Positions 43,185 through 57,100 of a DNA stretch of 64,000 nucleotides are shown here, piece by piece. The stretch comes from Halothiobacillus sp. Its GTDB lineage: Bacteria; Pseudomonadota; Gammaproteobacteria; Halothiobacillales; Halothiobacillaceae. The stretch is taken from positions 372,001 to 436,000 of the forward strand of contig JADQCE010000003.1 in the NCBI GenBank assembly GCA_016278265.1, written 5' to 3'. The notes under the pieces are model-generated. The model saw nothing but the letters and a program-made list of their open reading frames with translations. It ran no database searches and was not told the origin of the DNA. The position numbers were made by a program, and so were the translations under genes. Each line of letters begins with the position of its first letter. Position 1 is the stretch's first letter.

Positions 43185-44690
43185 ATGCCCAACCGTTTTC
43201 AGCCCTACCAGCCCACCCGCGTCGACCTCGAGCAGCTCGCCGCCGAGGGCTACAACCGCGTCCCCGTCACCCGCCGCGTGCTGGGCGACTACGACACGCC
43301 GCTGTCCGTCTACCGCAAGCTGGTCGAGGGGCCGTTCGGCTACCTGTTCGAGTCGGTCACCGGCGGCGAGCGCTGGGGGCGCTACTCGATCATCGGCCTG
43401 CCGTCTTCCACCGTCCTGACCGTCCACGGCCACCGCGTGGTGGTGAAACAGAACGGCGAGATCGTCGAGGACGAAACCGTCGACGACCCGCTCGCCTGGA
43501 TCGAGACCTTCAAGGCCCGCTACCGCGTCTTCGAGCCCCTCGATATGCCGCGCTTTCACGGCGGGCTGGTCGGCTACTTCGGCTTCGAGACCATCGGCTA
43601 CATCGAGCCGCGCCTGGCCAACTTCGACGCCGACGACCCGTTGGGTGTGCCCGACATCCTGCTGATGGCCAGCGAAGAGGTGGTCGTGGTCGACAACCTC
43701 TCCAGCGAGCTGCTGCTGGTGACCCTGATCGACCCGGCCGAGACCGGCGCGATCGATCTAGCCCAGGTGCGTCTCGATACGCTGGCCGCCCGCCTGCGCG
43801 AGCCGGTGGCCAACTACGGATCAAGCGCCCCGGGCAAGCCGATCGACGAGAACGACTTTACCGCCACCTTCACCCGCGAAGGCTACGAGAACGCCGTGCG
43901 CTCCATCCGCGAGTACATCGCGGCGGGGGATGTCATGCAGGTGGTGCCCAGCCAGCGGATGAGCATCGAGTTTGGCGCCGAGCCGATCGACCTCTACCGC
44001 GCGCTGCGCAGCATCAACCCCTCGCCTTACATGTACTTCATCGATGCCGGCGAGTTCACCGTGGTGGGTTCGAGCCCCGAGATCCTCGCCCGGCTCGAGG
44101 ACGGCACGGTCACCGTCCGTCCCATCGCCGGCACCCGCCCGCGCGGGGCCACGGAGGCCGAGGACAAGGCCCTCGAGCAGGATCTCCTGAGCGATCCCAA
44201 GGAGATCGCCGAGCACGTCATGCTGATCGACCTGGGGCGCAACGACACCGGCCGTGTTGCCAAGGTGGGCAGCGTCAAGCTCGAGGAGCGCATGATCATC
44301 GAGCGCTACTCGCACGTCATGCACATCGTCTCGCAGGTCACCGGTCAGCTGGACGACGATCTCAACGCCATGGACGTCCTGCGCGCGACCTTCCCCGCCG
44401 GCACCGTCTCGGGTGCACCCAAGATCCGCGCGCTGGAGATCATCCAGGAGCTCGAGCCGGTCAAGCGCGGCGTCTACGCCGGGGCGGTGGGTTACTGGGC
44501 CTGGAACGGCAACATGGATACGGCGATTGCGATCCGTACCGGGGTGATCAAGGACGGGCAGTTGCATGTTCAGGCGGGTGGCGGGATCGTCGCCGACTCG
44601 ATTCCTGCGACTGAGTGGGAAGAGACGTTGAATAAGCGGCGGGCGTTGTTCAGGGCGGCGAATATGGCTAGTCGGGGGTTGGATGGTTAA
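43185..44690 (+). CDS. trpE: Anthranilate synthase component I
   Basis: 501 residues. The N-terminal domain has [20 protein letters not shown], which includes the LLES-like feedback region for tryptophan binding. The C-terminal chorismate-binding domain holds [46 protein letters not shown] and [19 protein letters not shown]. It converts chorismate and glutamine-derived ammonia to anthranilate. trpG is not in the window; an AT-richer island begins just after the stop. The last ~130 bases already use more AT-rich codons than the rest. Confidence 0.96.
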
Positions 44691-44751
44691 GAACGATAAC
44701 CACACTCCCCATCTCAGCAGTTAAGGAAAATTCCGACAAGGATTGGTTTTC

Positions 44752-46431
44752 ATGAGTGAGTTGCACGTAAGACAAATTAAAGCCGCATTGGCGCGAAACT
44801 TCAATGGCCTGGTGGACATGAGTGACTATGCGTCAAAGTCTGCCGATGATCGCGAAAAAGCTTTTCTGTCTCGGGCCCAAGCAGCCTTTGTGTTGACATA
44901 TTTGACAGGTGACTCCCCAGAAGAGCTTGCGCTGTCAATTACGGATGGTGGACAAGATAATGGACTTGACGCGGTTTATTATCACTCGTCTGAGCGAGTG
45001 ATCTATCTGGTCCAAAGTAAATGGCGTTCCGATGGTTCGGGAAGCATCTCGCGAGGAGAGGTCCAGAAGTTTATACAAGGGTTCCGTGATCTTATTAATG
45101 CGCGCTGGGATCGTTTTAACGACACAATACAAGCTAGAGCTACAGCTCTTGAGAGTGCGCTCAATGACGCTTCGATCAGAATCGTGCTCGTCGTCGTGTA
45201 TACGGGGCAGCAGCCATTAGGAGAGGAGGTTCAGCAGGATGTTGATGACACTCTCCGAGAAGTGAATGATACGGCTGAGCTTGTTTCATTTCAGGCGCTT
45301 CGGCAGACAGACATTTATTCCGCAGTATCCCAAGGTATCGAGGGTGCCCCGGTTGATCTTGATGTGGCTCTTTATGATTGGGGTCAGGTCCGGGAGCCTT
45401 ATACAGCTTTTTATGGGCAGGTCGCGGCAAGTGATGTTGCTCATTGGTATACAGCGCATCAGGGGCATCTTTTCGCTCCGAACATCAGGATGTTCCTTGG
45501 TCCCACAGACGTGAACGCTAGTATCGTTGATACATTAAGTGAGTCGCCCCAAGATTTTTGGTATTTTAATAACGGGATAACAGCACTTTGTCGATCGGTT
45601 TCCAAGAAGCCAATAGGCGGATCCTCCAAGGAGACTGGTATTTTTGAATGTCATGATCTCCGTGTCGTTAACGGTGCGCAGACGGTAGGTGCGATAGCTA
45701 ATGCATTCGAAAGGAACTCTGACGCAGTGTCTGGGGCGAGGGTTAGTATTCGAATAGTTTCACTGGAATCTTGCCCGCCGGGATTTGATCGACTGATAAC
45801 TCGGTACAATAATACGCAAAACCGAATTGACCGGCGTGATTTCGTTGCATTGGATCCGCAGCAGGAGCGTTTGCGGGGGGAGCTCCAGTTAGAAGGGGTT
45901 CAGTACGTTTATAAATCGGGTGACGCAGTTGGCTCGGCATCGAATGGCTTTGATTTGGCTGAGGCAACAGTTGCCCGCGCCTGTCGTCATTCCGGAATTA
46001 GTACAGCCGTTCAGGCAAAACGAGAAATCGGTCGGCTCTGGGAGAACCTGAACGAAGCGCCGTACAGGGTGCTTTTTAATCCTTCGGTTAATGGGCCTGA
46101 ATTATGGCGGCAAGTTCTGATCATTCGGATTGTTGAGGAAGTGTTGGCGGTTCATCGTAAAGATGGAGAAGGCCGGCACCGGCTTTTGGCTGTTCACGGA
46201 AATCGCGTCATAGAGCATTTGGTGATGCAGTGTTTGGCGACGAATATCACGGATGGTCATGGTGAGCTAGACTCTGACGAAGTTTCTGAGGTCAAAAGGT
46301 TGGCGAATAGCGTTTTTTTAGAAACGCTTGAAATTGTTAACCGCCTTTATCCTGAGGCGTACCTTGGTAGTCTCTTTAAGAACGCTTCCAAGTGTAGGCG
46401 GCTTGGAGAAGAGTTTTTGTGTCCGGAATAG
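44752..46431 (+). CDS. AIPR-family protein with PD-(D/E)XK-like N-terminus (probable phage defence)
   Basis: 559 residues from ATG 44752, nine bases after AAGGA; TTG 44743 is too close to that site. Residues ~60-91 contain DGGQDNGLDAVYYHSSERVIYLVQSKW: Asp73 and the Gln88-Ser-Lys90 triad suit a restriction-endonuclease-like active site. Residues ~235-330 have the AIPR (abortive infection phage resistance) hallmarks: NIRMFLGPTDVNASIVDTL, FWYFNNGITALC and LRVVNGAQTVGAI. Together this looks like a single-protein nuclease-type defence gene. Base composition is far more AT-rich than the neighbours, a sign of horizontal transfer. It stands alone: no methylase or other known defence partner is adjacent. 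Confidence 0.82.
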   Translation: MSELHVRQIKAALARNFNGLVDMSDYASKSADDREKAFLSRAQAAFVLTYLTGDSPEELALSITDGGQDNGLDAVYYHSSERVIYLVQSKWRSDGSGSISRGEVQKFIQGFRDLINARWDRFNDTIQARATALESALNDASIRIVLVVVYTGQQPLGEEVQQDVDDTLREVNDTAELVSFQALRQTDIYSAVSQGIEGAPVDLDVALYDWGQVREPYTAFYGQVAASDVAHWYTAHQGHLFAPNIRMFLGPTDVNASIVDTLSESPQDFWYFNNGITALCRSVSKKPIGGSSKETGIFECHDLRVVNGAQTVGAIANAFERNSDAVSGARVSIRIVSLESCPPGFDRLITRYNNTQNRIDRRDFVALDPQQERLRGELQLEGVQYVYKSGDAVGSASNGFDLAEATVARACRHSGISTAVQAKREIGRLWENLNEAPYRVLFNPSVNGPELWRQVLIIRIVEEVLAVHRKDGEGRHRLLAVHGNRVIEHLVMQCLATNITDGHGELDSDEVSEVKRLANSVFLETLEIVNRLYPEAYLGSLFKNASKCRRLGEEFLCPE

Positions 46432-46444
46432 TTAGGGTGTTTGT

Positions 46445-46963
46445 GTGATTAGAATCTACGCTGTTGCAATTGCGTTATTTTTGGGTGGGTGCGCCTCTGC
46501 GCCGACTGATCAGGATGGTGAATCGTCTGGAGCGATTTTGATCAATTTTTCTGGTGCTAATGACGAGGGTGGCAAGGGTGCCATTCCGACAAAAATGCAA
46601 CAGATGGTGCCATTGCAGGAATGGCATGGTGATGTGAATTTAGATTTTCCTTTGACCCGCGCGGTTAAGTGTGAGGCTAAAGAGGGCAAATGCGAGCAAG
46701 CCGTGGTGAGCGCAAGCCTTGAGTTCAAATATTCTTTGACGGGACCTAAAAAAGTCTGCTTGTCTGGCAGCTTGATGTCTCAAATGGGGCGCTCTCTTTC
46801 GGTAGAAGGGAAAAACTTCAATCAGGTGCGGAGTGTCTCGGCTTCAGTTCCTTTAATTGATGACGTTACAAAGCGAAGTCCGATAGACGTCTGCCTAAAA
46901 CAGGGAGAGTCGCACGCTATTGGAGGGCTGGGCGGTGTGACGGTGACGGTCACGAATATGTGA
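46445..46963 (+). CDS. Small lipoprotein of unknown function
   Basis: 172 residues from GTG 46445, 13 bases after the AIPR gene. The lipobox LFLGGC puts the lipidated Cys at position 16; Ala/Ser at the next positions favours outer-membrane sorting. The mature part is soluble and beta-rich, with Cys residues in VKCEAKEGKCEQ, KVCLSG and DVCLKQG that could form disulfides. It shares the low G+C of the AIPR gene and lies in the same direction, so both may have arrived together. I do not recognise the family. Confidence 0.7.
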   Translation: MIRIYAVAIALFLGGCASAPTDQDGESSGAILINFSGANDEGGKGAIPTKMQQMVPLQEWHGDVNLDFPLTRAVKCEAKEGKCEQAVVSASLEFKYSLTGPKKVCLSGSLMSQMGRSLSVEGKNFNQVRSVSASVPLIDDVTKRSPIDVCLKQGESHAIGGLGGVTVTVTNM

Positions 46964-47189
46964 CTCGTCAGGGTGCGCCCTTGAGGCGCCTGCGCCGCCT
47001 AGGTGCAGACGGTCGCAGCCTAGGCGGGCGTCCACGCGGAAATAACCGAACTACTCAATGACGGGGTCGGACCTAGTCAAGCACTTGATATAACGTCTTT
47101 TCCCCTCTTCTGAGGGGCTTTTCATGTCATAGATCGTCATTTTTGCCGTGAAAACGGCTTCCGTAAAAGTTTGTTCTTGGGCCCCATCT
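46964..47189. other. AT-rich intergenic end of the acquired island
   Basis: This non-coding stretch holds a 9-bp inverted repeat (CCGCCTAGG at 46995, CCTAGGCGG at 47019) and then a terminator. No gene is seen. G+C rises sharply beyond it, where the composite repeat begins. Confidence 0.5.
47102..47122 (+). terminator. Terminator after the AIPR/lipoprotein pair
   Basis: CCCCTC, loop TTCT, GAGGGG followed by CTTTTC. It is 138 bases after the lipoprotein stop and probably ends that transcript. Confidence 0.65.
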
Positions 47190-47895
47190 CGAAGCGTGGT
47201 GGATCGGTTTCACGCGCTCGTTGCGTGACGTGGCATCGCTTCGGCTCCGTGCCTAGCGCGCGAGTCGGTTTTCTTGCTTGTCCAAGAAAACCGACGAAAA
47301 GAAGGACACCCCGACGCCTTGGCCCTGCGGGCCTGATCGCTGCGCGATCAGCCTCGCGAACGGGGAAGCGCGGACGGGTCGGTTCGACGCGACGTCGTGT
47401 CGCGGCGAACCTCGGGCCGCCGTCCATGGCGGCCCGACCCTGCAATTCCCCGTCCGCGAGGCAAGGCGTAAGGGGACTTGCCCTTCGATTCCGACTGTTG
47501 CGAGCGTTCAAGGGATGCAATTTTCTTGGAGTTCTGGCCGAAGAAAGATCGGAGCGGCAATACCGCACGGCGTGGTAACGGAGGGGGTGCCCCTTGACGG
47601 CTTGCCTCACGGCCGGCGGGTGGCCGGGGTCGGAGCGACATGGACGTCGCTCCGAGGCTCAGCGCGACACGACGTCGCGTCGAGCCGGCCCCGAGACATT
47701 TGCCGGCCGTGAGGCTTCGAGGTCGGACACTGTCCGGCCTCGAAGGCCCGAAGGGCCAAGCCGTGGGGTGTCGTTCTTTTCGCCTCTTTTCTTGGACAAG
47801 CAAGAAAAGGGGCTCGCGCGCCGGGCAGGGCGATGTCTATTGATCGCCGCGCGCAACAGGCGTGCGAAACGATCCTCCAGCGTATATTCGAGTGA
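47190..47895. repeat. Composite inverted-repeat element, copy A (full, ~0.7 kb)
   Basis: Two long imperfect arms face each other. The left arm core (about 47256-47325) reads GCGCGCGAG, then GTCGGTTTTCTTG-CTTGTC-CAAGAAAACCGAC as a 13-bp perfect hairpin, then GAAAAGAAGGACACCCC and CCTTGGCCC. The right arm (about 47745-47822) is its reverse complement with changes that largely keep the hairpin. Between them lie paired segments such as GGGCCGCC/GGCGGCCC and CGGAGCGAC/GTCGCTCCG. It fills nearly the whole gap between the lipoprotein and the TolA-like gene; the open frames inside are shadows of the repeat. Confidence 0.75.
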
Positions 47896-47914
47896 CCGAG
47901 GCAGTCGGCCGAGA

Positions 47915-48568: not shown

Positions 48569-48706
48569 GGAAGTGCTTCCGTTGCGTGGTCATGGAACAA
48601 GCGGTCAGGGTACTTTCCGTCGATTGTTGTCGGTTGTCCAGCAACCGTCTGAGCTGGCTTCTACCGTGTGCCAGAACAGTGACTCACACTATCCGGTATG
48701 GGCGTG

Positions 48707-48915
48707 AGTCTTCGAGGACGGACACTGTCCGGCCTCGAAGGCCCGAAGGCCCGAAGGGCCAAGCCGTGGGGTGTCTTTCTTTTCGCCCCCATGCTCATCA
48801 CTTGGCTTGGACAAGCAAGAAAAGGGGCTCGCACGCCGGGCAGGGCGGTCGCTATTGTCCGCTCCCCGCAACAGGCGTGCGAAACGAGTCTCCAATGTGT
48901 ATTCGGGTGGTCTGT
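48707..48915. repeat. Composite element half copy B
   Basis: It matches the right arm of copy A: GGACACTGTCCGGCCTCGAAGG, GGGCCAAGCCGTGGGGTGTC, CTTTTCG, CTTGGACAAGCAAGAAAAGGGGCTCGC, then GCAACAGGCGTGCGAAACGA. Before the hairpin it has CCCATGCTCATCACTTGG instead of the CCTCTTTT arm of copy A. It lies in the 451-base gap 3' of mscS and in the 5' region of the TolA-like gene; the rest of that gap shows no gene. Confidence 0.75.
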
Positions 48916-48935
48916 GTAGTCGGCCCAGGGTCGAC

Positions 48936-50247: not shown

Positions 50248-50470
50248 ATACGGCGTCGTGTCGGGCCGGCGGTCGTGATGCATCGAGGTCGGACGTCGTC
50301 CGGCCTCGAAGGGCCGAAGGGCCAAGCCGTGGGGTGTCTTTCTTTTCGGCCCCATGTTCATCACTTGGCTTGGACAAGCAAGAAAAGGGGCTCGCGCGCC
50401 GGGCAGGGCGCTCGATCGTGGCCACGCCACGAAACAGGCGTGCGAAACGATCCACCAGCATCTATCCGAG
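50248..50470. repeat. Composite element half copy C
   Basis: Same orientation and subtype as copy B: GTCGTCCGGCCTCGAAGGGC, GGGCCAAGCCGTGGGGTGTC, CCCATGTTCATCACTTGG, CTTGGACAAGCAAGAAAAGGGG, then GAAACAGGCGTGCGAAACGATCC. It sits in the 468-base gap between the mscS start and the 3' end of the GGDEF gene. The remainder of the gap holds the next hairpin and the mscS promoter region. Confidence 0.75.
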
Positions 50471-50499
50471 AGATTTGAGGTAGCCAGCCGGTGGCCGGC

Positions 50500-50521
50500 G
50501 TCGGACTGAAGTCCGACCTAC
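50500..50521. repeat. GTCGGACTGAAGTCCGAC hairpin, single copy
   Basis: Identical to the unit at 37089-37110 including the trailing CTAC. It lies 30 bases after half copy C, the same arrangement as the variant after copy B. Confidence 0.85.
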
Positions 50522-50549
50522 AGTTGGTGGCAGTCGTGGGGAAAGGGAG

Positions 50550-56410: not shown

Positions 56411-57100
56411 GCCGTAGGAGAGGGTTTCGCACGCATCTTGTGTGACGAGGCTCTCGGTTTGCCGCCATGCCCGGCGTGCGAGTCGATTTTCTTGCTTGTC
56501 CAAGAAAACCGACGAAAAGAAGACACCCCGGCGCCTTGGCCCTCCGGGCCTGATCGCCGCGGATGGTATCCGCGACGATCAGCCTCGCGACCGAGCGATT
56601 GCGGACGGGTCGGTTCGACGCGACGTCCTGTCGCGGTGAACCTCTGGCCGGCGTCCCTGCCGGCCAGACCCTGCAACCCCTCGCTAGCGAGGCAAGGCAC
56701 AAGGGGACTCGCCCCTTCGATTGCGTTTGAAACGCGACCTCCCAGCGTTCCTGTTGCCTTGAGAAGCTGTTGTATGTCGCCGGATGGTTGGGAGCCAGGC
56801 CCCCTTGCGTCCTGTCTCGCGGCTGGTGGGTGGCTCGGGGTCGGAGCGACAGGGACGTCGCTCCGAGGCTCGCCGTGACAGGAAGTCGCGTCGAGCCGGC
56901 CCCGAAGCCAGCCGCCGGTCGCGAGGATTCGAGTCCGGACATCGTCCGGGCTCGAAGGCCCGCAGGGCCAGGACGCCGGGGTGTCCTTCTTTTCGGGTGT
57001 TTTCTTGGACAAGCAAGAAAATACCCTCGTGCGCCGGGCACGGCGGCAACTCCTTGCCTGCTCGCGCAACCGGCGCGCGAAATACCATCCAGCGGCCCAA
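56411..57100. repeat. Composite inverted-repeat element, copy D (full, ~0.7 kb)
   Basis: Same plan as copy A: left arm with GAGTCGATTTTCTTG-CTTGTC-CAAGAAAACCGAC, AAAAGAAGACACCCC and GCGCCTTGGCCC; middle with GGTCGGTTCGACGCGACG and CGGAGCGAC/GTCGCTCCG arms; right arm with GTGTCCTTCTTTTCGG and GTTTTCTTGGACAAGCAAG. It takes up most of the 929-base gap between rlmM and mgtE. The open frames inside are repeat shadows. The remaining ~220 bases before mgtE hold no gene. Confidence 0.75.

Follow-up and report, generated by a model that had tools for sequence, protein, structure and literature searches.

What does the gene that directly follows trpE in this Halothiobacillus genome encode, and how did it come to lie there? 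The locus was studied within a 64,000-nucleotide stretch of DNA (the window; Table 1), in which a preliminary description had proposed a horizontally acquired, single-gene phage defence effector joining a nuclease-like domain to an AIPR domain. The open reading frame is intact from its ATG to its stop codon, with an in-frame TTG 9 bp 5' of the ATG, and it does stand directly after trpE, whose stop at position 44690 leaves a gap of 61 bp. The gene had been called AT-rich, which holds relative to the host (49.3% GC, against 66.4% in trpE) and not in absolute terms; the corresponding GC3 values are 46% and 90%. It is the single AIPR gene found in the host genome, and a promoter scan of positions 44500-47250 gave no sites above those of shuffled sequence. 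We propose, with moderate confidence, that its product is a stand-alone anti-phage nuclease of the PD-(D/E)XK type, gated by a ParB-like nucleotide switch and acquired by horizontal transfer.

Table 1. Features of the trpE-proximal locus and of the repeats that follow it, in window coordinates.
Feature	Position	Strand	Remarks
trpE, left boundary of the variable slot	43185..44690	+	Homology with sister genomes ends at the stop codon
AIPR/AbiU-family protein, 559 aa	44752..46431	+	49% GC
Predicted PD-(D/E)XK (Mrr/MspJI-like, D-QxK) nuclease domain, residues 1-198	44752..45345	+	D73, Q88, K90
AIPR core, predicted ParB/Srx-like fold, residues 197-432	45340..46047	+	
C-terminal helical region, residues 433-559	46048..46428	+	AlphaFold2 model
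172-aa ORF with lipoprotein-like N-terminus	46445..46963	+	13 bp downstream of the AIPR gene
Dispersed self-inverted intergenic repeat, right boundary of the slot	47061..47910		Homology with sister genomes resumes (47060-47195)
TwoAYGGAY match in repeat arm	47348-47471	-	
TwoAYGGAY match in repeat arm	47625-47693	+	
TwoAYGGAY match in repeat arm	56596-56673	-	
TwoAYGGAY match in repeat arm	56836-56904	+	
Further copy of the repeat family	48700-48928		
Further copy of the repeat family	50270-50523		
Further copy of the repeat family	56423-57094		

By its sequence the gene is a member of the known AIPR/AbiU family. A search with the Pfam AIPR profile (PF10592) scored 119.9 bits (E 2.3e-34) against a gathering threshold of 25, over residues 241-400; the best stretch covers profile positions 1-159 of 308, and this profile models the core only, the nuclease motif discussed below lying outside the modelled region. 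The PADLOC AbiU model (PDLC02357), judged on its E-value of 3.1e-29, spans both parts of the protein (residues 57-388), and PHROG 1841, a group annotated under abortive infection as Abi alpha-like, aligns with all but the ends of the protein (residues 8-550, E 3.3e-94). The likeness to these families consists in full-length homology to PHROG 1841 and in the core motifs FNNG and VNGAQT, which lie within the hallmark sequences FWYFNNGIT and VVNGAQTV noted earlier and now located at residues 269-277 and 305-312. The MzaE model (NCBIfam NF041935) matched the AIPR core weakly (E 5e-10), and its 38.5 bits against a curated cut-off of 1050 led us to reject membership of the MZA system; MzaE is the AIPR protein of a multi-gene system, whereas no multi-gene operon is present at the Halothiobacillus gene. 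Searches of PDB sequences with phmmer and hmmsearch returned no usable relative, a match to syntaxin-12 (E 0.022) being discarded as weak. AIPR genes were found in this analysis on phages, plasmids and chromosomes, and no description of AIPR biochemistry was found in the literature searched.

The N-terminal part of the protein is predicted to be a nuclease. After GLDA (G71-L72-D73-A74) come 13 residues and then QSK (Q88-S89-K90), the pattern from which an active site had been suggested, and the spacing and identity of D73, Q88 and K90 proved to be conserved far beyond chance. Among 69 homologues collected from phages, plasmids, genome contigs and viral contigs (non-redundant at 90%, the Halothiobacillus protein included), D69 is present in 66, D73 in 68, Q88 in 66 and K90 in 52, and the 13-residue spacing between D and Q is constant in the close branch. 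A full-length AlphaFold2 model built from a 42-sequence alignment (pLDDT 87) gave no significant E-value in a Foldseek search of the PDB, and the domains were resolved by a second look with VIA-align, not by Foldseek alone. In this comparison residues 1-198 match FokI (Z 9.1, 143 aligned, 3.5 A), MspJI (Z 9.1, 134 aligned, 4.0 A), Avs4 (Z 8.0, 133 aligned, 3.8 A) and HamA of Hachiman (Z 7.7, 162 aligned, 4.2 A), to be read with the tool's own caveat that a Z under 8 may reflect a common arrangement only. Since the best structural matches come from a single superfamily, whose active-site pattern is present in the sequence, we read residues 1-198 as a predicted PD-(D/E)XK nuclease-like fold with a D...QxK site, in agreement with the nuclease-like N-terminus put forward in the preliminary description, and infer that this domain would cleave DNA in a metal-dependent manner. 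The Q-x-K form is known from Mrr and MspJI. The likeness to these D-QxK endonucleases lies in the fold and in Q-x-K standing in place of E-x-K, and that to the nuclease domains of Avs4 and HamA in the fold; the sensor domains of all of them differ from that of the AIPR protein, in which no separate DNA-recognition domain was found. A quite different N-terminus, an HEPN RNase toxin, is suggested by a published statement on AIPR proteins (PMC3506569), and a 2013 survey of HEPN proteins counts AbiU2 among its families; set against the conserved D-QxK motif, an alpha/beta nuclease model with PD-(D/E)XK matches and the lack of any HEPN family match in Pfam and PADLOC, this reading is barely credible, and we rejected it as not fitting the AIPR branch to which the Halothiobacillus gene belongs.

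The pairing of nuclease and AIPR domain is not special to this gene, as most of the homologues collected carry the motif. K90 is replaced by tyrosine in 15 of the 69 (QCY, QGY and similar), and nearly all of these proteins carry a TDGxxDKKxD-like stretch; this replacement means that part of the family may act without DNA cleavage, and the tyrosine group possibly represents an inactive or repurposed nuclease fold. Members of this group (L082, L087, L094, L096, L105, L108-L110 and L112-L115) retain D69, D73 and Q88. Three longer AIPR proteins of relatives (L007-L009, open frames of 611-698 aa) gave no alignment to the D-QxK motif, which indicates that not every AIPR protein has the nuclease half. 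The viral contigs yielded no match when scanned with a single AIPR sequence and 80 loci when scanned with an alignment. The widely shared nuclease half, together with the lysine-to-tyrosine group, is a useful addition to the picture of the family.

The AIPR core, whose likeness to the ParB/Srx fold the preliminary description had overlooked, was modelled alone (residues 197-432, pLDDT 80). Its nine best structural rows all belong to the ParB/Srx superfamily, with Z scores of 4.8-5.8, modest values below the Z of 8 in the tool's caveat; the next row scores 3.0. These rows are Noc (5.8), ParB-CDP (5.7), PadC (5.7), a pNOB8-like ParB-N (5.3), ParB of C. crescentus (5.3), KorB (5.3 and 5.2), sulfiredoxin-ATP (4.9) and a second pNOB8-like row (4.8), and several of the matched structures were solved with CTP, CDP or ATP; the full-length model likewise matches ParB-N and SspE. 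Foldseek E-values for the isolated core were not significant, and hhalign of the core against family alignments of DndB and GmrS gave probabilities below 1%, so the link to ParB rests on predicted structure. The same non-significant local alignments place VVNGAQT in register with DGQHR of DndB and with DGQQR of GmrS, a protein whose ParB/Srx-fold domain carries the motif (I/V)DGQQR (PMC4619093). N244, R246, N255, N273-N274-G275, N307 and Q310 are invariant residues of the core; the N273-N274-G275 stretch, N307 and Q310 are identical in 69 of 69 homologues, and the polar residues among these latter positions (N273, N274, N307 and Q310) suggest a ligand site. We regard a ParB/Srx fold for the core as likely but unproven. 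The nuclease could instead be the effector while the AIPR domain serves as a nucleic-acid-binding or protein-sensing scaffold that neither binds nor hydrolyses nucleotide, its resemblance to ParB/Srx being one of shared arrangement only; the non-significant Foldseek values, the modest Z scores and the presence of NGAQT where DGQHR or DGQQR would be expected all fit such a scaffold, whereas the confinement of the nine best rows to one superfamily, the gap that follows them and the invariant polar residues do not, and we consider it unlikely though deserving of serious weight. Neither a ParB fold nor a PD-(D/E)XK nuclease in AIPR is described in the literature searched, which included few subscription papers and no bioRxiv preprints, and AIPR is absent from the main text of a 2025 survey of the ParB-CTPase fold (PMC12704722).

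Comparison with the rest of the genus bears on the origin of the gene. It is absent from all ten congeners searched (one genome per species), and among 187 relatives AIPR matches, all of them distant, occur in four other genomes. A base-by-base comparison with six sister genomes shows that homology ends at the trpE stop and restarts in a repeat that begins between 47060 and 47195; the space between holds a different cargo in each (loci L116-L121). In G002 this is a DNA methyltransferase with an XcyI-type restriction enzyme, forming a type II R-M pair; G003 has an AAA ATPase that weakly matches PDC-S59, G004 an OLD/AriA-like ATPase, G005 a family-less protein of 246 aa, G009 an RT-Toprim protein of a type I-C retron (E 6.8e-203) and G001 a small membrane protein. 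The cargo genes have about 44-54% GC, and three of the six sister slots contain clear defence genes. The region between trpE and the repeat is therefore a variable defence slot, a feature of the locus missed in the preliminary description, and its defence cargo supports both a defence role for the AIPR gene and its horizontal gain; the latter, already put forward there, is supported also by the absence from congeners, the deviant GC content and the break in homology at the trpE stop. Within the slot we saw no integrase, and outside the genus the region downstream of trpE is different. The family-less cargo of the sister slots may itself include defence genes. A single copy of horizontal origin could be a domesticated or decaying passenger with no present role in defence, which we judge improbable given the intact frame, the retention of every conserved residue, a relative of 68% identity in a MAG and the presence of other kinds of defence gene in the sister slots.

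The repeat at the right boundary belongs to a family of which the genomes of the genus carry many copies each, in both orientations and at roughly 67-90% identity; in the host genome its copies were sampled by search. The boundary copy holds two matches to TwoAYGGAY (RF01731) and a terminator-like hairpin at 47102. Rfam types TwoAYGGAY as cis-regulatory; within the genus, 10 of 11 genomes contain 4-18 matches apiece, and here the element behaves as part of the dispersed repeat rather than as a gene-specific leader. Copies of the repeat flank the slot and several nearby genes.

Does the AIPR protein act alone? The earlier claim that it needs no partner agrees with the neighbourhoods of its homologues, since across 41 non-redundant close homologue loci no co-directional gene accompanies AIPR from host to host. 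The commonest neighbours are phage genes that lie downstream on the opposite strand in 9-10 of the 41 loci, which we take to be P2-like portal and terminase genes; others reach at most 7. The gene is flanked by replication and mobilisation genes on 5.6-kb Klebsiella plasmids, adjoins the repressor in Aggregatibacter phage S1249, and on a Deinococcus plasmid stands among SNF2, methyltransferase and helicase genes, a setting that agrees with the reported association of AIPR with R-M (PMC2292703). A two-gene system formed with the lipoprotein-like ORF downstream would account for their shared strand, 13-bp spacing and similarly low GC content. Yet this ORF has no family match and no homologue in the other AIPR loci fetched, a short N-terminal stretch of it matches two longer proteins at other loci in two congeners, and on small plasmids and phages AIPR homologues occur by themselves; a two-gene system is thus very improbable, and the ORF is probably passenger cargo of the slot.

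Our structural and comparative data suggest a model in which a single AIPR/AbiU chain would unite an N-terminal D-QxK endonuclease, a diverged ParB/Srx nucleotide module and a helical C-terminal region. The ParB-like module would bind nucleotide and the nuclease would be held inactive until infection, when a phage-induced cue, whether a DNA state, a protein or the nucleotide pool, would cause a conformational change in the module that frees the nuclease to cut DNA; the gene itself would have arrived by horizontal transfer into the slot between trpE and the dispersed repeat. The proposal that the core acts as a nucleotide-dependent switch draws on analogy with SspE, the closest worked-out analogue, in which recognition of a DNA mark triggers GTP hydrolysis and this licenses the nuclease (PMC13251355). 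SspE, a phosphorothioate-dependent ParB-fold GTPase with an HNH nuclease, and GmrSD combine a ParB/Srx-like module and a nuclease in one chain, as is predicted for the AIPR protein (structural match to SspE: Z 4.0, 118 aligned, 4.4 A). Their nucleases are HNH and C-terminal, whereas that predicted in the AIPR protein is PD-(D/E)XK and N-terminal, and VVNGAQT differs from the DGQQR of GmrS. The N-terminus of DndB, of the DGQHR family, has been assigned to AbiU1/AIPR (PMC3506569), and viral DndB-like models turn up in the fold search with non-significant E-values, but in DndB such a nuclease domain is undescribed in the literature searched. The same likeness to GmrSD and SspE, and to the MspJI/Mrr class of nucleases, would suit restriction in place of abortive infection, the protein being a type IV-like enzyme that depends on DNA modification, cuts modified DNA as it enters and leaves the cell alive; no modification-reading domain was found in the protein and the family is named after abortive infection, and we hold this to be a minority prospect.

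Extending the gated stand-alone nuclease to the family is more tentative, and we put its chances somewhat below even: the main AIPR/AbiU branch may form a distinct class of defence nucleases, each a single polypeptide whose Mrr-type PD-(D/E)XK domain is under the direct control of a ParB-like NTPase, with the lysine-to-tyrosine branch working otherwise and such genes circulating within Halothiobacillus through the repeat-bounded trpE slot. AIPR is a widespread defence family, and should the two-domain reading hold, it would gain a testable mechanism, nucleotide-gated DNA cleavage, for which the residues to mutate are named here, and would join SspE, GmrSD and DndB among the ParB-fold defence proteins. 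For the genus Halothiobacillus, the slot behind trpE is a place in which to seek further defence genes.
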